Virus record (IMG/VR): IMGVR_UViG_3300045996_002402
Location: 1-35,820 of that record
Direction: 5' to 3' (one strand)
Length of the DNA: 35,820 nucleotides
From: a virus
The translations under genes and the position numbers were made by a program. This document shows, one piece after another, positions 19,923-29,987 of this stretch; within the stretch, counting starts at the first letter, position 1, and each line of letters starts with the position of its first letter. Below the pieces are notes generated by a model, which had not been told where the DNA came from, did not search any database, and was given only the letters and a program-made list of their open reading frames with translations.

Positions 19923-20768
19923 ATGGCCGCCTGGACCCTGATCCCCTGCCTCGTCCAACTGCGCACCGAGTTCAACGCCGCCGCCCCAGGCCGCGACAAA
20001 GGTGCCGACGGTGCGATCGGCGACAGCAGCCACACCTCCACGTCAGACCACACCCCCGACGAGGACTCGGACGTCCTGCGCGACCACGACGCCGACAGCA
20101 AGAACGAGGTACACGCCCTCGACATCGACTCGACCGGCCCCTGGCCAGACGGCAAGGGCGGCGAGGCGGGCGGCTGGTTCGACCAGCAGATCCGCGGCAT
20201 CGTCGAACGGCATCGCACCGGAGCCGACAACCGCCTGCAGTACGTAATTTGGCGCGGCCGGATTGCTTCCCGCTCGCAAGGCTGGGCGTGGCGTACCTAC
20301 TCCGGCGTCTCCCAGCACTACGACCACGCGCACTTCTCCGCCCGCTACATCACCGGCGCAGAGAACGACACCAGCCCGTGGGGGCTACCCCAGGAGGAGG
20401 ACGACGAGATGCTGGTTAAGAAGGGCGACACCTCGGAGCAGGTGAAGTTCTGGCAGTTCCTGCTGACCGACCTCGGTTTCCCGCTCACTACCGACGGCAC
20501 CTACGGCCCCGCCATGGAGGCCGCGGTGAACGCGCACCGCAAGTCCAAGGGGCAGGGCCCGAACCCGGCGATCAGCGCCTGGCACGCCATGATGCTGCTG
20601 CGGGACCTGGCCGCGGAGCATGCCGGCCAGCGAGGACCGGCCGGTCCCGCCGGACCGCAGGGCCCCGCCGGACCGAAGGGTGACCCCGGTCCCGCTGGCC
20701 CGGCTGGCGAGCTGACCGGCACGCTGACCGTGACCGGTGGCCAGCTGACCGTCGAAACGAGCGCATGA
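19923..20768 (+). CDS. endolysin: M15-type peptidase, peptidoglycan-binding domain, collagen-like tail
   Basis: 281 residues. Residues 1-145 form a metallopeptidase of the M15/ARB_07466 kind: SDH at 41-43, HALDID at 64-69, RLQYVIWRGRIASRS at 104-118, and YDHAH at 133-137, supplying the expected His/Asp zinc ligands. This should cut peptide links of the cell wall. Residues about 165-215 are a PG_binding_1 type domain (VKKGDTSEQVKFWQFLLTDL, TDGTYGPAMEAAV). Residues 238-262 are eight Gly-Pro-X type triplets, and the end is a short strand (GTLTVTGGQLTVETSA). No signal peptide is present, so a holin is needed for exit. The collagen-like tail is unusual for an endolysin and could make it trimeric or virion-bound. 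Confidence 0.9.
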   Translation: MAAWTLIPCLVQLRTEFNAAAPGRDKGADGAIGDSSHTSTSDHTPDEDSDVLRDHDADSKNEVHALDIDSTGPWPDGKGGEAGGWFDQQIRGIVERHRTGADNRLQYVIWRGRIASRSQGWAWRTYSGVSQHYDHAHFSARYITGAENDTSPWGLPQEEDDEMLVKKGDTSEQVKFWQFLLTDLGFPLTTDGTYGPAMEAAVNAHRKSKGQGPNPAISAWHAMMLLRDLAAEHAGQRGPAGPAGPQGPAGPKGDPGPAGPAGELTGTLTVTGGQLTVETSA

Positions 20769-21175
20769 TCCCGCCCCACCCGGGTCGCCGCGGCCGGGCG
20801 CTGCTTGGGTTCGCCGCCCTCGACACGGCGTGGGGTATCCGTCTGGCCACGGTCGACCCTGGCAGCACCAACTTCTACAGCTGGCTCGACAAGCTCTGCC
20901 CGCTGTGGTGGTGGTCGGCGCCCTGGTTCATCGTCGCCGCCCTCTGCCTGGCCTTCGCCTTCCGCAACTGCGACCGGGTGGCGTTCGGCGGTGCCGTCGG
21001 CATCAAGATCTTCTGGGCCACCATGTGCCTGAGTGCTGAGACGTTCGGGGAGGTAGCTGACGCCTGGCCGCAGGCGGCGCTGTTCGCCACGTTCGCCTGG
21101 TGTGTGTGGCTGATAGCCGGGTGGCCGGAGTCGTTCGAACGAAAGGGTGTCGAGTGGACGCCGCCACTGCAGTAA
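20765..21175 (+). CDS. membrane protein of the lysis region (holin candidate)
   Basis: 136 residues, ATG 20765 overlapping the endolysin stop (ATGA). Contains about three or four hydrophobic spans: LLGFAALDTAWGIRLA, LWWWSAPWFIVAALCLAFAF, GGAVGIKIFWATMCLSA, and AALFATFAWCVWLIAGW. The cluster of Trp is striking. Membrane topology and coupling to the endolysin make it a holin or antiholin candidate, though the order is not diagnostic. A coiled-coil gene overlaps its end by 22 bases. Confidence 0.78.
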   Translation: MIPPHPGRRGRALLGFAALDTAWGIRLATVDPGSTNFYSWLDKLCPLWWWSAPWFIVAALCLAFAFRNCDRVAFGGAVGIKIFWATMCLSAETFGEVADAWPQAALFATFAWCVWLIAGWPESFERKGVEWTPPLQ

Positions 21176-21555
21176 TTCTTGCGTCGGCCCTCTCCATGGT
21201 TGGCGGCATCGTGGTCGCCAGGATCACGACCCGGGTCGCCGGCCGGGCCAGCAAGACGAGCGCCATGCTGGAGTGGGCCAAGCAGCTACAGGCGTCCGAG
21301 GCCGCCGCCCGCAAGGAGGCGATCGAGTCACGCGAGCGGGCTGACCGGATCCGCGACGAGGCCGAGCAAGACGTCAACCGGCTCCGCGCCCAGTACGACG
21401 ACCTGGCCGACAAGCTCCGGTCGGCGCACGCCCTGGCCGACAAGCTCACCGACACCCTGACGTCGGTGCAGTCGGAGATCTGGCGGCCCCAGCCCGACAT
21501 CGCCGCGTTGCGGAACCTGGTTGGCCGGCCCCAGTCCGGGCTCAACGGCCGCTAA
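21154..21555 (+). CDS. single-span membrane protein with coiled coil (lysis accessory, spanin/holin-like)
   Basis: 133 residues from GTG 21154, chosen because AAAGGG at 21142-21147 is well spaced; an upstream ATG at 21100 would give a long overlap. Residues 4-22 form a membrane helix (TAVILASALSMVGGIVV), followed by basic residues and a long charged coiled coil (WAKQLQASEAAARKEAIESR, ERADRIRDEAEQDVNRLRAQ, LADKLRSAHALADKLTDTL). Short C-terminal tail IWRPQPDIAALRNLVGR. Such one-span coiled-coil proteins next to holins can act in the last step of lysis. No lipobox seen. Confidence 0.75.
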   Translation: MDAATAVILASALSMVGGIVVARITTRVAGRASKTSAMLEWAKQLQASEAAARKEAIESRERADRIRDEAEQDVNRLRAQYDDLADKLRSAHALADKLTDTLTSVQSEIWRPQPDIAALRNLVGRPQSGLNGR

Positions 21556-21564
21556 CAGGCCGAC

Positions 21565-21630
21565 GGGCGCCCGGCAGCTGGGTGGGTGTGACCTTCAGTG
21601 ACCCATTGCTTCCGGCCGGCCGGGGCGCCC
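21565..21630. terminator. bidirectional terminator-like inverted repeat
   Basis: GGGCGCCCGGC (21565-21575) pairs with GCCGGGGCGCCC (21619-21630) with one bulged G. It lies between the rightward gene ending at 21555 and the leftward gene ending at 21665, the place for a shared terminator. The loop is long (43 bases) and there is no T run. Confidence 0.4.
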
Positions 21631-21664
21631 TTCACCCATCATGTCGGCAGGCCTGCGTGATCGC

Positions 21665-21853
21665 TTAGCGGCCGGCCCGGCGCCGCTGCTGTGCGGTGAG
21701 GTACGCCCACGGGTCTCCCGGCGCCAGGGAGGCCTGATGCAGGTCCTCCAGCATCGCCGCGGCGGCCTTCACCCAGTCGCCGCCGTAGTGCTTGTCGGCC
21801 TCTTCCTGGATCCAGTCCCGCGTGCTCTGCCGCAGGTCAGCGCTGTTCTCCAT
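21665..21853 (-). CDS. 62-residue reverse-strand protein, unknown function
   Basis: From ATG at 21853 to stop at 21665. The sequence looks like a compact helical protein: MENSADLRQSTRDWIQEEAD, KHYGGDWVKAAAAMLEDLHQ, then LAPGDPWAYLTAQQRRRAGR. It is hydrophilic with Trp and amphipathic helices, unlike a random GC-rich frame. An extended -10 element lies just upstream, placed so that the mRNA would start at the ATG. Being on the opposite strand within the lysis region and with its own promoter, it is a candidate for expression in the lysogen. Confidence 0.65.
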   Translation of the reverse strand: MENSADLRQSTRDWIQEEADKHYGGDWVKAAAAMLEDLHQASLAPGDPWAYLTAQQRRRAGR

Positions 21854-21859
21854 CACGCC

Positions 21860-21865
21860 ATTAGA
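21860..21865 (-). promoter_or_regulatory. extended -10 promoter for a leaderless transcript
   Basis: On the minus strand TGT-TCTAAT is a TG-N extended -10 with 5 of 6 consensus bases. Six bases separate it from the ATG at 21853, so transcription would begin at or next to the start codon, as in leaderless actinobacterial mRNAs. No good -35 is seen, as expected for an extended -10. Confidence 0.45.
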
Positions 21866-22212
21866 ACACCGGTACGGAACGCAAGCAGGGCCCGGCGGTT
21901 GGTGGCCGCCAGGCCCTCGCTCGGTATCTCGCCGCCACTTCAGGTCCTCACCCGGGGAGCCGGCCACCCCGGCGGCTTCCCACCGCCACCGCCACCCGCT
22001 GCGCTGCGCGCTTCGCCGCGTCCGGCCGGGTGCGTGGGGGTGCGCCCGCCCTGGCTGCGGCCGGTGAGCCGGGGGCCAGGGAGCCCCTGCCAGGCCCGCC
22101 GGCACCACCCGCTGCGTCCTGACACCCCCAGCGTGGCACGCCAGAAATTGAGGCGCAACCCCCCTGACCTGCATGAATATCTGCCACCCGAGCGGGTGAG
22201 GCAGCCGATTTC
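21866..22212. other. intergenic stretch without a supported gene
   Basis: About 350 bases between the 62-residue reverse gene and the holin-like gene. The rightward frame of the next gene stays open through it, but the translation is Pro/Arg/Gly-rich and not protein-like. GC-rich inverted segments occur (for example GCCGGCC near 21960 and GGCCGG near 22060), so it may hold the divergent promoter region or a structured leader. I see no tRNA, repeat array or strong promoter. GAGGAGA at its right edge serves the next gene. Confidence 0.5.
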
Positions 22213-22225
22213 CGAGGAGATCATC

Positions 22226-22600
22226 ATGTCCATGTCCACCCACGGCAAGGCCATCGTGGCGTTCCTGTACGCCGTCGCGGTCGCCGTCCTGCCTCAGGTC
22301 ACCGGCGACCGCAACGCCGAACCGGCCGAGCTGGTCGCCATCGCCATCGCGGTCGCCACCGCGGTGGCCACCTACCTGGTGCCTCTGGCGCCGAACGCCA
22401 CCGGCGTGAAGACGGCCGTAGCGGCGGTGCTCGCCGCGCTGCAGGTCGCCGCGACCCTGATCCTCGACGGCGCCCTGGACTCCAACGACATCATGCTGAT
22501 CGCCGCGACCGCCCTCGGCGCGCTGGGCATCGCGGTCGCCCCGGCCGCGTCCACGACCGGCGTCGCCGTGGGCTGGGGATCCGACTCCCGCACGGCATGA
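22226..22600 (+). CDS. holin-like membrane protein
   Basis: 124 residues from ATG 22226 with GAGGAGA at 22214-22220. Three or four membrane spans: AIVAFLYAVAVAVLPQV, ELVAIAIAVATAVATYLVPL, TAVAAVLAALQVAATLILDG, and AATALGALGIAVAPAA, with the short polar end GWGSDSRTA. Size and topology match actinophage holins, which open the inner membrane so that the endolysin can reach the wall. Two other membrane genes lie upstream, so which is the true holin is unresolved; this one has the better profile. Confidence 0.82.
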   Translation: MSMSTHGKAIVAFLYAVAVAVLPQVTGDRNAEPAELVAIAIAVATAVATYLVPLAPNATGVKTAVAAVLAALQVAATLILDGALDSNDIMLIAATALGALGIAVAPAASTTGVAVGWGSDSRTA

Positions 22601-22802: not shown

Positions 22803-22835
22803 AGCGGCCCACCTCCCTCGCGGAGGTGGGCCGCT
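22803..22835. terminator. strong bidirectional hairpin terminator
   Basis: AGCGGCCCACCTCC (22803-22816), loop CTCGC, GGAGGTGGGCCGCT (22822-22835): a perfect 14-bp stem. It lies exactly between the rightward lysis operon (ending 22791) and the leftward membrane-protein operon (ending 22851). It has no T run, as is common for high-GC actinobacteria. Confidence 0.75.
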
Positions 22836-22850: not shown

Positions 22851-23345
22851 TCAGGCGTCGATCCGTTCCCGGGCGTCCCGGATCGCGCGCTTCGCGGTCG
22901 CCTCGCTGACGTTGAACGCGTTCATGATCTCGCGTACCCAGTCCGCGTAGTTGCCGCGGCCGGCCACGAGCCGGTCGGCCATCTCCTCCCGCGTCTCTTC
23001 CTCTCCGCCCTCAAGGTCGAGGTCGATCTCGTCGTCCTCGACCGGGCTGTCAGCGGCGTGGCCGTGCCATGGCCGGACGAGGATCGACCCGTCCGGCTGC
23101 GGGACCCGTTCACGCCACCACCACTGCTTCCGGTCGGTGTCATCGGTGGTGTCATCCGGTGTCAGATCATCTGTTTCCCCTGGTGTCACGTCGATCTCGT
23201 CCCCGTCCGGTGGGGTAGGGGAGTGGCCTCGGTAGTCCATCCACCAGCGATGGGTCCACACCCCGATGAACGCGATCGCGGAGGCGATCATCAGGCCGAC
23301 CAGGTGCGCCCAGCCCGGGTCCTGGGTCTCAGCAGCGAGCAGCAT
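22851..23345 (-). CDS. membrane-anchored protein with C-terminal helix-turn-helix-like segment
   Basis: 164 residues; last gene of the leftward operon. One membrane span near 13-33 (HLVGLMIASAIAFIGVWTH), a short basic stop (RWWMDYRG), a very acidic Asp/Thr linker (48-72), a Trp-rich turn (RKQWWWRERVPQPDGSIL), an acidic stretch (EDDEIDLDLEGGEEETREE), and a final helical segment near 125-164 (MADRLVAGRGNYADWVREIM, NAFNVSEATAKRAIRDARE) that looks like a helix-turn-helix. From memory it resembles conserved small membrane proteins of actinomycete plasmids and integrative elements, annotated without function. ATG overlaps the previous stop by one base. Confidence 0.8.
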   Translation of the reverse strand: MLLAAETQDPGWAHLVGLMIASAIAFIGVWTHRWWMDYRGHSPTPPDGDEIDVTPGETDDLTPDDTTDDTDRKQWWWRERVPQPDGSILVRPWHGHAADSPVEDDEIDLDLEGGEEETREEMADRLVAGRGNYADWVREIMNAFNVSEATAKRAIRDARERIDA

Positions 23346-23866
23346 CAGTTACCTCCGAGCAGGAAGCCGGGCAGCGGTGCGAACACCTCGGCGAGTAGTT
23401 CGTTCGTTCCGGCAGTCAGGTCGCCGATCCAGCCGAGCGGGACGTCACCGAACAGGCCGACCGCGACCGCGACCAGCCACAGCTTCCAGTTGATCGCCCA
23501 CACCCCGGACGGCGGGAAGTTCACGGTTGCGAGCCGGCCGAGCCGCTTGCTGGCCTTCGCGGGCAGCAGGCAGCCGAGGCCGTACAGCCAGATCCCGCCG
23601 ACGAGGATCCCGACGACCGCCGATGCCGAAGCCGCGGCGATGTAGGCGTCACCGGTGCGGTCGAGACCCCACTGAATGACGCCGGTGAGCCGCTCGAGGG
23701 TCCAGGCGTCAAGCTGGCTGCCGTTGAAGCCCTCGTAGATCGCCGGGATGGCCATGAGGAACGCGAGCCGGTCGCGGATCCAGTTCGGGCCGACGGAGAC
23801 ATAGTCGACGACGACCGCGAGCAGGAGCAGCACGGCCACCCCGGTCGGGGACATCTGGTGATCCAT
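23345..23866 (-). CDS. multi-span membrane protein, unknown function
   Basis: 173 residues. Hydrophobic spans near 8-25 (VAVLLLLAVVVDYVSV), about 77-100 (AAASASAVVGILVGGIWLYG, LGCLLP), and 125-147 (WKLWLVAVAVGLFGDVPL), with a loop containing FNGSQLDAWTLERLTGVIQW and a final Gly/Leu-rich end (PLPGFLLGGN). No enzyme motif. Tightly coupled on both sides (one-base stop/start overlaps), so it is made in fixed proportion with its neighbours, suggesting a membrane complex. Confidence 0.8.
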   Translation of the reverse strand: MDHQMSPTGVAVLLLLAVVVDYVSVGPNWIRDRLAFLMAIPAIYEGFNGSQLDAWTLERLTGVIQWGLDRTGDAYIAAASASAVVGILVGGIWLYGLGCLLPAKASKRLGRLATVNFPPSGVWAINWKLWLVAVAVGLFGDVPLGWIGDLTAGTNELLAEVFAPLPGFLLGGN

Positions 23867-24099
23867 CAGGCCACCACGTCCATGACGGCATTGCCGCTGT
23901 CGTAGTCGCAGACCTGCATGATCGGGTGGTCCATGGGCTCGTTCTCGGAGACCCGGGCCCGCTGGACGAGCGCGACGAGCTGCCGATCGAGGATGGCGTT
24001 CATGGTTGGCGATTCCAGGTCGACGTCGATGACGAGGTTCGCCTTGCGCAGCACCTCGTACTGCCCGTCATAGATCCTCAGCCGGTAGCGGCGAAGCAT
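23866..24099 (-). CDS. small soluble protein of the membrane operon
   Basis: 77 residues, ATG at 24099 with GGAAGGAA upstream on the minus strand. Sequence: RRYRLRIYDGQYEVLRKANL, VIDVDLESPTMNAILDRQLV, ALVQRARVSENEPMDHPIMQ, VCDYDSGNAVMDVVA. It looks like a small alpha/beta fold with no membrane span, perhaps a cytoplasmic partner. Similar 'RYRLRIYDGxYEV' proteins accompany the same membrane genes on actinomycete elements, from memory. It overlaps the previous gene by 32 bases. Confidence 0.78.
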   Translation of the reverse strand: MLRRYRLRIYDGQYEVLRKANLVIDVDLESPTMNAILDRQLVALVQRARVSENEPMDHPIMQVCDYDSGNAVMDVVA

Positions 24100-24232
24100 C
24101 GTCGGTTCCTTCCGTGGGTTCGGGTTTGGGCGGGAGGGTGGAGAGCTCCATGCGGCCGCCGGCGATCCCGCAGGCGAGTCCGGCGATGAGGAAGGCGAGG
24201 GAGATCAGCTCGGGGCTCAGGTCGACGCTCAC
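24068..24232 (-). CDS. 54-residue single-span membrane protein
   Basis: GTG at 24232 overlaps the stop of the preceding membrane gene (GTGA). Residues 9-27 form one membrane helix (LISLAFLIAGLACGIAGG), followed by a Pro/Glu/Asp-rich tail (LPPKPEPTEGTDDASPLPAE). The acidic tail probably faces the cytoplasm or binds a partner. Found by reading the frame between the two larger genes; the overlaps on both sides support it. Confidence 0.75.
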   Translation of the reverse strand: MSVDLSPELISLAFLIAGLACGIAGGRMELSTLPPKPEPTEGTDDASPLPAEDL

Positions 24233-25047
24233 GACTCGGCCCGGACCATGTGAGCCAGCGCGGCGCCCATGCCGAGCACGGCGACGGGAATTCCGGAGAC
24301 GACGAGCGTGATCGGCCACGGGGCGACGGTCCATCCGAGGGCGACCATCTGGTGGTAGATGGCCTGACCGGCGAAGCCGAGCAGGAGCGAGCCGATAGCC
24401 GACCAGCGGGCGAAGGTGAGCGCCTTGCCGTGCACGAATCCGGACAGCCAGACGTAGAGCGCGTAGGCGGCGTAGGTCTCCATCCCGATCGGCAGCGTGA
24501 TCGCCGTGTTGATGGCGATCTTCTCGGCGCCGGGGATGCCGGGGAACGGGTGCACGACACCGAAGCCGGTCATGCTGCCGAGGTCGACCCACCCCGCCCA
24601 GATCGCGGCGAACGCGGGCAGGCACAGGATCAGAACCGGCCACACGACAACCCGCCGAGCAGGGCGGGAAGAGGCAGCGACCGGCTCGACGACCGGTGCG
24701 GCGACCTCGTCCCGAACGGTTTCGGTCACCTCGGCGACGACCGGCGGCAGTGGCTCGACGAGCGGCGCGGCGGGCAGTTCGGGGAGAGGTGCGACGACCA
24801 CGGCCGGACGGGGGCGCGGCTTCTTCCGGCGGGCGACCGCGGCCATCGCCGCACGGCCCTGGCGGATGCGTTCGGCTCGCCGTTCGCGGGAGAGGGTCTC
24901 GCGTACGTCGGCGGCCGTCTCCCGGCGGACGTGCAAGGTCTTCCGCAGGGATTCGATGGACGGGATCGAGCCGGCGCCGACGTGCTGACGGGCTTCGGTA
25001 AGTAGCTGCTCGCGGGTGCGCCGCGGCGGCGTGGCGGTAATGGTCAC
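24229..25047 (-). CDS. membrane protein with N-terminal helix-turn-helix-like segment (spread/permease-like)
   Basis: 272 residues from GTG 25047, chosen because GGAGGA lies 6-7 bases upstream on the minus strand; the frame stays open to 25215 but that part would cross the operators. Residues 16-60 (SIPSIESLRKTLHVRRETAA, DVRETLSRERRAER) resemble the recognition part of a winged-helix or helix-turn-helix; residues 75-125 are a Pro/Val-rich linker; residues 134-268 hold about four membrane spans (VVWPVLILCLPAFAAIWAGW, INTAITLPIGMETYAAYALY, WSAIGSLLLGFAGQAIY, ITLVVSGIPVAVLGMGAAL). From memory, similar proteins on actinomycete plasmids and integrative elements are labelled ABC-permease-like or spread proteins, without proven role. 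It is the first gene of the operon. Confidence 0.82.
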   Translation of the reverse strand: MTITATPPRRTREQLLTEARQHVGAGSIPSIESLRKTLHVRRETAADVRETLSRERRAERIRQGRAAMAAVARRKKPRPRPAVVVAPLPELPAAPLVEPLPPVVAEVTETVRDEVAAPVVEPVAASSRPARRVVVWPVLILCLPAFAAIWAGWVDLGSMTGFGVVHPFPGIPGAEKIAINTAITLPIGMETYAAYALYVWLSGFVHGKALTFARWSAIGSLLLGFAGQAIYHQMVALGWTVAPWPITLVVSGIPVAVLGMGAALAHMVRAES

Positions 25048-25147
25048 GGATTCCTCCGCAGTCGGCGGGGTGGTCTGGGTGCCCGGGACGACCGACGACG
25101 TGGTCCTGCCTCGTCGTCCCGGGAAGCTCTCGACATCCGCTCTAGCG

Positions 25148-25161
25148 GGTGTCATGACACC
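25148..25161. promoter_or_regulatory. operator copy 1 (GGTGTCATGACACC)
   Basis: Perfect 14-bp palindrome in the divergent region between the leftward membrane operon and the rightward ribbon-helix-helix gene. Its centre is 26 bp from that of copy 2. Confidence 0.75.
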
Positions 25162-25170
25162 TAAGCTAGC

Positions 25171-25422
25171 ATGGGTGTCATGACACCCACAAGTAGACCG
25201 GATACCAAACGTCATGACACCCTGATCAACGTGACGTCAAAGGGCACCGACCGCCGCACCATCCGCGTCGACCCGGAACTCTGGGAAGAGTTCGGCGAGT
25301 GGGCCCGCGACTATCCGGGCGGTGCCTCCGGTGCCCTGCGCGCGTGCATGCGATACCTGCTCGGCAAACCGGAGGCCGAACTGCCGAGCCGCGACGGCGA
25401 CACCCCGACGCCGGAGAGCTAA
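25171..25422 (+). CDS. ribbon-helix-helix DNA-binding regulator (putative)
   Basis: Up to 83 residues. The core is TDRRTIRVDPELWEEFGEWA, RDYPGGASGALRACMRYLLG, which has the short basic strand and two helices of Arc/CopG/ParD-type proteins. The start is uncertain: ATG 25171 and ATG 25180 lie in the operator, while GTG 25231 begins just before the conserved core and leaves all operators upstream. No strong ribosome binding site helps. It probably represses both itself and the leftward membrane operon through the palindromes at 25148-25222. No toxin gene follows it, so a toxin-antitoxin role is less likely. Confidence 0.75.
   Translation: MGVMTPTSRPDTKRHDTLINVTSKGTDRRTIRVDPELWEEFGEWARDYPGGASGALRACMRYLLGKPEAELPSRDGDTPTPES
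25173..25188. promoter_or_regulatory. operator copy 2 (GGGTGTCATGACACCC)
   Basis: Perfect 16-bp palindrome with the same core as copy 1. It overlaps the first codons of the ribbon-helix-helix frame if that gene starts at 25171. A third partial copy, GTCATGACACCC, lies at 25211-25222. Repeated palindromes of this kind are typical of autoregulation by the adjacent small DNA-binding protein. Confidence 0.75.
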
Positions 25423-25523: not shown

Positions 25524-26711
25524 ATGCCAGATCAGGAGACGTTCGAACACGCCTTGACCCGGCTGCGTGGCGGCATGTCGCTGCGAGAGCTAGCCCGCCG
25601 GTCCCATATCAACGTCGGGCACCTGTCCCGCGTCGCCCGCGGGCAGCGTCCCCCCAGCGCCGACATTGCTCGAGCCTTGGACGAGGCTCTCGGCGCCGAC
25701 GGCCAGCTCATCGCCCTCACCGCGACGCGCAAGCCTGCACGGTTCGAACCCGACGACTTCCGGCCGTGGGAGACCGCCGAGCTTCTCGGCCGGATCCGGG
25801 CCGGCGCCATCGATTTCGGCGCGATCGAGTCCCTTGAGGCCACGGTGTTTGAGCTGTGCTGCGAGTACCCGGTGCGGGATGCCCGGAGCCTGCGGCGGGA
25901 GGCCCACGGCTGGCTCGGTGAGGTCGAACGCAAGCTCCGGCAGCCCGTCGGCCTGGCTGCTCACGAGGGCCTGCTCCACGCCGCCGGCTGGCTGGCGCTG
26001 CTCACCGGCTGCCTGGAGTACGACATGGGCAAGCGGGCCGCAGCCGAAGCGACCCGCGTGGCAGCCCGGCAGCTCGGCGAAGAGGGCGGCAACCCCGAGA
26101 TTGTCGGCTGGTCATACGAGATGGAGGCCTGGTTCGCGCTCACCCAGTCCCGCTATCAGGCGGTCCTCGATGCCGCCGAGGCCGGTCAAGCCGTGGCGCC
26201 CGGCGGATCCGCTGCCGTACAGCTCGCCGGGCAGCAGGCGAAGGCCTACGCGCGGACCGGGAACCGGGAAGGCGTACGCGAAGTGCTGGAGCAGGGGCGG
26301 ATCCTGCTCGCGTCGCAGCCGGCCCCGTCCCGGCCGGATCATCACTTCATCGTCGACCCGGCGAAGTGGGACTTCTACGCGATGGACGCGTACCGGCAGG
26401 TGGGCGACGACGACCGGGCAGCACAGCACGCCAGGATGGTGCTCGAGCTCGGGACGGGCCCGGATGGTGAGCTGGCGCCGATGCGAATGACGGAGGCCCG
26501 GCTGACGCTTGCTGCCGTTGCCGCACGTGAGGGCGACCTGGAGCAGGCCGTCGAGACGGGCATCGGGGCGCTTGGCGGTCAGCGCAAGTCGCTGCCGTCG
26601 CTGCTGATGGTCGGCGGCGAGCTGGAGACCGAGTTGCACACCCGCTACCCGGACGAGTCCGGGACCGCGGACTTCCGTGAGGCGCTGCGATCGGTCGCCG
26701 CCAGAACGTGA
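25524..26711 (+). CDS. XRE-family regulator with TPR-like C-terminal region
   Basis: 395 residues. Residues 6-60 form a clear helix-turn-helix of the XRE family (HALTRLRGGMSLRELARRSH, INVGHLSRVARGQRPPSADI, ARALDEALGADGQLIAL). The remaining 330 residues are helical pairs with the Ala/Leu spacing of tetratricopeptide-like repeats (AAHEGLLHAAGWLALLTGCL, KAYARTGNREGVREVLEQG, AAVAAREGDLEQAVETGIGA). This is the actinomycete regulator type that usually stands next to a DUF397 gene, and one is found at 27292. In chromosomes such pairs act in development or other switches; here it is phage cargo. ATG 25524 is preceded by AGGGAG at 25511-25516. Confidence 0.88.
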   Translation: MPDQETFEHALTRLRGGMSLRELARRSHINVGHLSRVARGQRPPSADIARALDEALGADGQLIALTATRKPARFEPDDFRPWETAELLGRIRAGAIDFGAIESLEATVFELCCEYPVRDARSLRREAHGWLGEVERKLRQPVGLAAHEGLLHAAGWLALLTGCLEYDMGKRAAAEATRVAARQLGEEGGNPEIVGWSYEMEAWFALTQSRYQAVLDAAEAGQAVAPGGSAAVQLAGQQAKAYARTGNREGVREVLEQGRILLASQPAPSRPDHHFIVDPAKWDFYAMDAYRQVGDDDRAAQHARMVLELGTGPDGELAPMRMTEARLTLAAVAAREGDLEQAVETGIGALGGQRKSLPSLLMVGGELETELHTRYPDESGTADFREALRSVAART

Positions 26712-27291: not shown

Positions 27292-27516
27292 ATGGAGATC
27301 GAGACCAAGGGCATGACGGTCGACCTGGCCGGTGCGTCGTGGAAGAAGAGCTCCCGGTCCGGTGCGGCCGGCCACTGCGTGGAGATCGCGTTTGTCGGGC
27401 AGGCGACCGCGGTCCGCGACTCGAAGGACCCGAACGGTCCGGCGCTGGTCTTCACGCCGGCCGAGTGGGACGCGTTCGTCGGTGGCGCCAAGGACGGCGA
27501 GTTCGACCGGAACTGA
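27292..27516 (+). CDS. DUF397 domain protein
   Basis: 74 residues. Contains the family hallmarks: ASWKKSSRSGAAGHCVEIAF, then ATAVRDSKDPNGPALVFTPA, then EWDAFVGGAKDGEFD. DUF397 proteins are typical of actinomycetes and usually pair with an XRE regulator, probably modifying its activity. Here the two are separated by two tiny genes instead of being adjacent. ATG 27292 follows AAGGAG at 27280-27285. Confidence 0.92.
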   Translation: MEIETKGMTVDLAGASWKKSSRSGAAGHCVEIAFVGQATAVRDSKDPNGPALVFTPAEWDAFVGGAKDGEFDRN

Positions 27517-28461: not shown

Positions 28462-28515
28462 CTGACACACATTCTCGCGCGAGCACTGATGTGCTGGCTC
28501 GAGAATGTGTGTCAG
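28462..28515. repeat. long near-perfect inverted repeat at the integrase end
   Basis: Arms of 25 bases with two mismatches and a 4-base centre (TGAT, 28487-28490). Left arm starts CTGACACACATTCTCG; right arm ends CGAGAATGTGTGTCAG and contains the stop codon of the integrase. It lies between two converging genes. It could be a bidirectional terminator, or, being a symmetric site of about 54 bp beside a large serine integrase, the phage attachment site. Confidence 0.75.
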
Positions 28516-29987
28516 AGCCACTCGACCTGAATACGCTCGCGGGGCGGCTGTCGGTACCTAGATGACGGCATGATCGTCACGGACTTGACCAGGCCCTTCA
28601 GCGCACGGTTGCGCTGCGGCCCGTTCAGCTTCGGCCACATCCGGAGGAGTCGCTCCCCCACGGCGATGATGCTGCTGGGGTCCGGCATGCTGGCCACCTC
28701 TTCAAGCTGCCTCTGCGCCTCGAGCAGGCGCGCCTCGGCGGCGTTCAGGGTGGACACCGTCTCCTGGTAGGTCCGGTCATCCATGAGGCCCCGGGACCAG
28801 CCTTCGGCGGCCTTGACCTTCGCCTTGAGGGTCGCCTTGAGTTCTGCCTTGACGGCGGCCGCATCGAGCCCTGCCCGATCGGACCTGGCGATCTGGGCAG
28901 CCCGTGCGCCGATGTTGAACTTCAGCTCGGAGATGTAGATCTCGACCTGCTCCAGGACGGCCTCAACCACCTTGGGCTCATCTGATGACCCGCAGCCGGA
29001 GCAGCGATCGAAGATGGCGAACTGGCGGGAGCAGAACATCCTGGCCGTGTCGACCCGGCCGCGCGCTTTCCCCTCAAGCCGGTGGTTGATGGTGCTCCCG
29101 CAGATACCGCACCGGCCCAGGCCGGAGAGGGCGTACTGGGGCACCGCATGCCATGCCGGGATTCTCGTGTCCCGCAGATGCCGGGCCTGCGCCCTGCCCC
29201 AGAGAACCTCGTCGACAAGAGGCTCGTGAGCGTTCAGCACCTCGACGGAGCCGGCCACCCCGCCGGCCCGCAGCCGCACATGCCCGCGGTACGTCTCGTT
29301 CTGGATCATCTTTTTCACCGTGGCGACGTGGGGCGCCCGTCCGGTGGCCTTGTGGAAGTCGCGGACGATGTCCCGCACGGTGGCCTCGCTCGCGTAGGCC
29401 TCGAACATGCGGGTGACCGCCGGGCCCTCGACGGGGTGCGGCTCGAGGAACCCATCGGCGCCGCGGCGGTAGCCGATCGGCGGTCGGCCGTGGTGCTTGC
29501 CGGCCTGGGCGCGCCGGGCGATGATCTGGCCCCAGTTGTTGCCGATCTCGTCGCTGCGCATTTCCGCGATGGCGAGAAGGTTGGTCAGCATCCACCGCCC
29601 GGACGGTGTCGATGTGTCGATCTGCTCAGTGGCGGACAGGATTGTCACGCCGCGCTCGGCGAGCCAGGACAGGAACTGCAGGGACTCGAGCACGTTCCGG
29701 CCGAACCGGGACACGTCGTAGACGGCGACCGCGTCGATCGCGCGTGCCTCGGCGAGCTTCCGGATCTTGTCGATGCCCTCGCGAGAGAACGTGCGGCCGG
29801 TCTGGTCTATGTCGTCGTCGATCAGGTCGACTTCCTGCATGCCCGCGGTAACGCGGCGCATGGCCGCGGTCTGGACCTCGGGGGAGTGGAAGTCGTCGCC
29901 GCTGCGCCCCATGACGGCGGACACGCGGACGTAGAGGACGACGCGGCGCGGCCGGTCGGGGACAGCGGCCAGACGCCGCCGGCTCAC
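28512..29987 (-). CDS. int: large serine integrase
   Basis: 491 residues. N-terminal catalytic domain with LYVRVS (catalytic S23), the family motifs IDAVAVYDVSRFGRNVLES (84-102) and TLLAIAEMRSDEIGNN-like region (135-151). Recombinase domain follows at about 160-290 (GRPPIGYRRGADGF, NETYRGHVRL). Zinc ribbon with CGICG (293-297), C319 and CSGC (329-332). Long coiled-coil helices near 370-440 (AAAVKAELKATLKAKVKAAE, LNAAEARLLEAQRQLEEVAS). All domains of an active serine integrase are present. It would insert the phage DNA at a chromosomal attB by a single crossover. Start overlaps the repressor stop by 4 bases, so integrase and repressor form one leftward operon. Confidence 0.96.
   Translation of the reverse strand: MSRRRLAAVPDRPRRVVLYVRVSAVMGRSGDDFHSPEVQTAAMRRVTAGMQEVDLIDDDIDQTGRTFSREGIDKIRKLAEARAIDAVAVYDVSRFGRNVLESLQFLSWLAERGVTILSATEQIDTSTPSGRWMLTNLLAIAEMRSDEIGNNWGQIIARRAQAGKHHGRPPIGYRRGADGFLEPHPVEGPAVTRMFEAYASEATVRDIVRDFHKATGRAPHVATVKKMIQNETYRGHVRLRAGGVAGSVEVLNAHEPLVDEVLWGRAQARHLRDTRIPAWHAVPQYALSGLGRCGICGSTINHRLEGKARGRVDTARMFCSRQFAIFDRCSGCGSSDEPKVVEAVLEQVEIYISELKFNIGARAAQIARSDRAGLDAAAVKAELKATLKAKVKAAEGWSRGLMDDRTYQETVSTLNAAEARLLEAQRQLEEVASMPDPSSIIAVGERLLRMWPKLNGPQRNRALKGLVKSVTIMPSSRYRQPPRERIQVEWL

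Follow-up and report, generated by a model that had tools for sequence, protein, structure and literature searches.

A membrane-protein operon in a temperate actinobacterial phage as a candidate counterpart of plasmid TraB/spd modules

What does a temperate phage of soil actinobacteria gain from a compact operon of membrane proteins that runs against its late genes? The operon in question, five contiguous open reading frames (A-E) spanning positions 25047-22851 on the minus strand, lies in IMG/VR record IMGVR_UViG_3300045996_002402; the whole record of 35,820 bases was analysed (hereafter the window), and since it is linear the window may be a fragment. None of the five proteins matched Pfam, PHROGs or NCBIfam, the libraries used for all our scans, and the core formed by C, D and E is without an earlier description. 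We propose, with a probability of about one half, that the operon is a phage version of the TraB/spd membrane-DNA modules, built around the C-D-E core. The leading candidate for its function would be the holding or moving of prophage DNA at the mycelial membrane.

An earlier reading of this DNA, made from its letters alone (the sequence-only reading), had made its case depend on the set travelling as a unit, and its conservation in other phages and genomes bears this out. Besides L021 (87% identity) and pMLP1 of Micromonospora (54%), a phage, the searches with protein D recovered 28 viral contigs as well as genomes of Micromonospora; genes of the relatives were predicted with a simple home-made caller, and loci were counted as 43 non-identical D loci. 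Within this set 38 loci have C, 41 have E and 36 have both partners, and the order C-D-E is preserved in 36 of the 43, among them prophages, pMLP1 and metagenomic phages. Homologues of E escaped a scan of the viral contigs with a single query sequence and were recovered only through synteny combined with a profile. D is present in 22 of 355 genomes of Micromonosporaceae, a mycelial family, and a survey of 395 genomes sampled across the class gave two matches, both already counted among the Micromonosporaceae hits.

The genes that accompany the module point to DNA translocation. At seven loci (L071, L073, L080, L088, L096, L097 and L098) an FtsK-type gene lies directly downstream of D, usually of D/E; six of the encoded proteins show the FtsK alpha, motor and gamma domains, and the L097 translocase was assigned from its profile match. 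In phage L080 the genes A, C, D, E and FtsK follow one another in this order next to an integrase, with tail and lysis genes opposite, and L071 combines the FtsK gene with a primase-polymerase gene in a setting resembling an integrative conjugative element. The most revealing arrangement is that of a sibling prophage in genome G042 (the same as phage L006), whose tail-region genes are 74-95%, capsid 75% and A 73% identical to those of the window. There, the place of B-E behind A is taken by a pair of small genes and a translocase of 633 aa. This translocase is 32-33% identical over about 450 residues to Streptomyces plasmid TraB, pJV1 included (E down to 1e-48), and a more distant sibling in G026 has the same arrangement. 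One and the same gene A is thus partnered by C-D-E in one case and by a TraB homologue in another. The relation of the module to translocase-linked modules is, in our view, well supported. The D tree is too poorly resolved (long branches L071, L073 and L098; two changes) to distinguish loss of the translocase from its gain. The TraB homologues are located at 4143-6044 in L102 (G042), 4444-6345 in L006 and 11668-13557 in L103, and the 129-aa gene that precedes the one in L006 is not clearly a TraA. A conjugation-type translocase within a tailed phage is worth a separate study.

The sequence-only reading had likened the cluster to actinomycete spread clusters. This likeness lies in the architecture and the context and in certain partner genes (DUF2637 and SpdB3-like); it does not extend to sequence similarity of A, C, D or E with pIJ101 SpdB or pJV1 SpdB2. 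As in the TraB and spd clusters of the Streptomyces plasmids pJV1, pIJ101 and pSVH1, a divergent regulator stands next to overlapping membrane-protein genes; related phages carry homologues of DUF2637 and SpdB3/PycTM proteins, and a TraB homologue follows the sibling A. The gene upstream of C-D-E varies, being of A type, DUF2637 (PF10935; 9 of the 26 relatives tested) or another membrane protein, many of the latter with a helix-turn-helix at the C-terminal end. DUF2637 genes adjoin traA/traB on Streptomyces plasmids; in the relatives in which they occupy the first-gene slot upstream of C-D-E, they often encode a C-terminal helix-turn-helix. A differs in its N-terminal helix-turn-helix, and neither A nor its 14 relatives matched DUF2637 at the curated cut-off.

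A link to the plasmids is offered by pMLP1 (CP058906, an unannotated record), in which the C-D-E set (C and E at 45% and 39% identity) also faces lysis genes; the pMLP1 module is contained in the genome of Micromonospora sp. ATCC 39149 (L025). Instead of A-B, it carries a first gene laid out like pJV1 SpdB2, with N-terminal helices, a long charged coiled coil and a C-terminal helix-turn-helix, next to a homologue of pJV1 SpdB3 (E 2e-8, PycTM). We assign the names spdB1-3 to three pJV1 genes (145-2221) on the basis of the gene order given in the literature; their record labels read hypothetical or Pycsar effector family. The gene at the SpdB3 position of pJV1 matches the Pfam Pycsar effector family (PycTM; L023 5343-5786, L104 1778-2221), and both this gene and genes near TraB on several plasmids bear the RefSeq name Pycsar effector. 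Some PycTM-type 'defence' annotations may denote spread genes. On pJV1, spdB123 adjoin tra (PMC3218068). According to work cited in PMC4170104, SpdB2 of pSVH1 oligomerises in the membrane, interacts with TraB and binds DNA without sequence specificity; a comparable union of membrane protein and helix-turn-helix part is predicted here for A and E.

Several observations weigh against a TraB/spd-type role. A and D showed no sequence match to pIJ101 SpdB, nor D to pJV1 SpdB2, and no plasmid counterpart was detected for C, D or E; D itself was found on 0 of 72,556 plasmids. Profile comparisons with pIJ101 SpdB/KilB and pJV1 SpdB2 were likewise negative, so that neither A nor D is named SpdB here and, given the lack of significant similarity to the plasmid Spd proteins compared, membership in the spd group is not claimed. 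The window module further differs from the plasmid clusters in residing on tailed phages and in having a regulator that is not of the GntR type. Neither the window nor the circular pMLP1 encodes a recognisable translocase, as judged by an FtsK profile scan together with gene-by-gene reading, the profile scoring divergent TraB proteins poorly (the homologue in L006 barely scored), and the same is true of most module copies. The sequence-only reading had noted this missing motor correctly and had played down transfer on its account. The second step does not follow: the TraB homologue of the sibling and the FtsK-type genes of seven relatives mean that transfer or spread cannot be dismissed for a motorless copy.

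A further difficulty is posed by six metagenomic phages (L085, L087, L089, L094, L095 and L088), in which C-D-E lies on the late strand among terminase and head genes, a setting at odds with a role confined to the lysogen. These copies are the main observation that both the spread and the defence accounts explain poorly. They would fit a lytic role instead, for instance one in which the proteins dock phage DNA at the membrane while it enters, replicates or is packaged, or help to time lysis, and the fact that the cluster faces lysis genes in 24 of 43 loci would agree with it. Yet in the window and in most prophages the module is opposed to the late genes and has its own divergent regulator, and hardly any of 50,697 phage records contains it, which makes a lytic role very unlikely. 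In the six phages C-D-E sits between terminase and portal (D at about 4-10 kb in all but L088), and their E proteins are short.

How the operon is organized bears on whether it acts as one unit (Table 1). The overlap of its five genes at every join, pointed out in the sequence-only reading, is real: A and B share 4 nt (GTGA), B and C 32 nt, and C/D and D/E 1 nt each (TGATG). In relatives the overlap is kept at D/E in 31 of 41 loci and at C/D in 19 of 38, which supports translational coupling of A-E. The division into four membrane proteins and a soluble one also stands, with hydrophobic helices in A, B, D and E only. At the far end, the stem that had been taken for a terminator is well formed (folding energy with flanks -44 kcal/mol, z = -6.3), but having no U-tract it yields no call in a consensus terminator scan; we consider it a likely terminator.

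Table 1. Features of the operon and its surroundings (window coordinates)
Feature	Position	Strand	Description
A	25047-24229	-	272 aa, GTG start; N-terminal helix-turn-helix region, disordered linker, four hydrophobic helices
B	24232-24068	-	54 aa, one hydrophobic helix; weakest gene
C	24099-23866	-	77 aa, soluble, no hydrophobic segment
D	23866-23345	-	173 aa, multi-helix membrane protein; all-helical in model
E	23345-22851	-	164 aa; one transmembrane helix, acidic linker, C-terminal helix-turn-helix-like motif VSEATAKRAIRDAR
Hairpin	22803-22835	-	14-pair stem, no U-tract; separates operon from converging late genes
Three TGTCATGACA-type palindromes	25147-25222	none	divergent promoter region; 25150-25159, 25176-25185, 25210-25219
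Divergent small gene	25231-25422	+	63 aa; possible ribbon-helix-helix regulator, by eye
Converging lysis region	19923-22600	+	endolysin-like and holin-like genes; usual neighbour of module

Upstream of A, the repeated operators proposed earlier are likely to be genuine. The palindrome TGTCATGACA occurs at 25150 and 25176 and, with one mismatch, at 25210, there are no matches elsewhere in the window, and three copies were reached in 0 of 100 shuffles. The divergent gene probably starts at GTG 25231, since the alternative ATG at 25171, which would lengthen the protein by 20 aa, places an operator within the gene. Its assignment as a ribbon-helix-helix protein found no match in Pfam, PHROGs or NCBIfam and is not retained as an identification. 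Upstream of the cluster, 29 of 37 loci have a small gene in divergent orientation (at most 110 aa), and those of the relatives appear to belong to several helix-turn-helix families.

Sequence conservation differs along the operon. In comparisons of the window with L021 or L006, the ratio of nonsynonymous to synonymous substitution rates (dN/dS) is 0.21 for D, the most conserved part of the operon, about 0.5 for A, C and E, and 1.78 for B on 49 codons. B nevertheless has a homologue in L021 (53% over 51 aa) with the same overlap. The C-terminal helix-turn-helix-like motif of E is conserved. In the AlphaFold2 model of A the N-terminal helices span residues 12-23, 31-38 and 42-74, and the helix-turn-helix region is confidently modelled (predicted local distance difference test score, pLDDT, about 90-94 over residues 11-70). 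Both A and E are thus predicted to bind DNA through these regions. Foldseek comparison of the A and D models with the PDB gave no significant match; a PT-VENN match of B and an ACAD match of C fell below the cut-offs and were not used. Among relatives of A the mean identity is 28% in the N-terminal part and 70% in the membrane part, and in two of them (L018, L020) the helix-turn-helix is C-terminal rather than N-terminal. A variable, putatively DNA-binding part joined to a conserved membrane part is the pattern to be expected were every element to recognise DNA of its own.

The rapid change of the A N-terminus, as well as the sporadic distribution of the module, would also suit a defence or superinfection-exclusion system, as the sequence-only reading had suggested. 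By analogy with what has been proposed for Sbash gp30/gp31, CarolAnn gp43/gp44 and Butters gp30/gp31, a membrane complex in the lysogen might sense incoming phage DNA by its helix-turn-helix tails and soluble C, and block entry or depolarise the membrane via D. Those RexAB-like systems consist of a multi-span membrane protein and a cytoplasmic partner, the membrane parts having four spans, and lie near lysis and immunity genes (PMC7542560). The module of the window is likewise placed between lysis and immunity genes in opposite orientation, and D with C has the same layout, which is a weak criterion. Furthermore, in L010, L011, L012, L014 and L017 A apparently stands alone beside lysis genes, and no translocase or C-D-E was seen next to it. 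Because of these resemblances in location and layout, defence is a real rival and the main one, although we regard it as somewhat unlikely. The Sbash, CarolAnn and Butters systems are sets of two genes rather than five, have no helix-turn-helix tails and no reported link to translocases; C had no match in the library scans, including to a DUF4747-like partner; and the recurrent pairing of the module with FtsK/TraB-type translocases and DUF2637 would be left without an account. Nothing in the analysis points to envelope remodelling, another role suggested earlier.

Membrane anchors with predicted DNA-binding motifs could serve a simpler purpose, namely tethering the phage chromosome at the membrane so that it is stably inherited in multigenomic hyphae but does not pass from one compartment to another. 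Such a role would not require a motor of its own, and mutation of spdB2 destabilises the linear plasmid SLP2, spread and stability being hard to separate in a mycelium (PMC4170104). However, several relatives, like the window, have a gene for an integrase or large recombinase, which should make tethering superfluous for inheritance, and the FtsK/TraB proteins of relatives suggest movement of DNA. We therefore consider pure maintenance quite improbable.

Under the favoured TraB/spd-type model, A and E would be anchored in the membrane with their helix-turn-helix regions contacting DNA, D would form a multi-span scaffold or channel, and C would be a soluble partner of the complex. In the lysogen, where we infer that the operon is expressed, the divergent regulator would restrain it by acting on the TGTCATGACA operators. 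The complex may collect phage DNA at the septum or the membrane and help to retain it in mycelial compartments or to pass it from one to the next. In some relatives the motor would be the FtsK- or TraB-type translocase that they encode; for the window phage it would need to be host FtsK or the translocase of another element.

The roles of the remaining window genes were read from their sequences. The plus strand carries terminase, portal, capsid and tail genes followed by the lysis region, which ends at about 22.6 kb, and beyond it lie the minus-strand operon, then regulators and a large recombinase. Capsid relatives that are 73-75% identical occur in two Micromonosporaceae genomes, which makes this family the likely host of the window phage. 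An NsdA-family TPR regulator with an N-terminal helix-turn-helix (25524-26711) is 79% identical to the gene just downstream of E in L069, and a DUF397-like gene (27292-27516) is found near it. Within the lysis region, a 62-aa open reading frame on the minus strand (21665-21853) is 55% identical to a homologue close to the L068 module. The integrase of the window (28512-29987, minus strand) is of the large serine-recombinase-like type, whereas the sibling in G042 has a 272-aa tyrosine-type enzyme; the integration module has apparently been exchanged between the two.

Decades after they became known, the Spd proteins of Streptomyces plasmids are still scarcely understood in their mechanism, and spread genes differ greatly from one plasmid to another. 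A C-D-E core present in dozens of phages, together with its natural swap against a TraB homologue behind A, offers a tractable comparison, in which one may ask what the membrane proteins do and whether prophages spread through the mycelium in a plasmid-like manner. It is conceivable, if unlikely, that C-D-E is itself an undescribed apparatus equivalent to TraB, which would move double-stranded phage or prophage DNA across septa or between hyphae without virions. If this were true, virion-free transfer would constitute a second route by which temperate phages spread in mycelial actinobacteria, beside infection.

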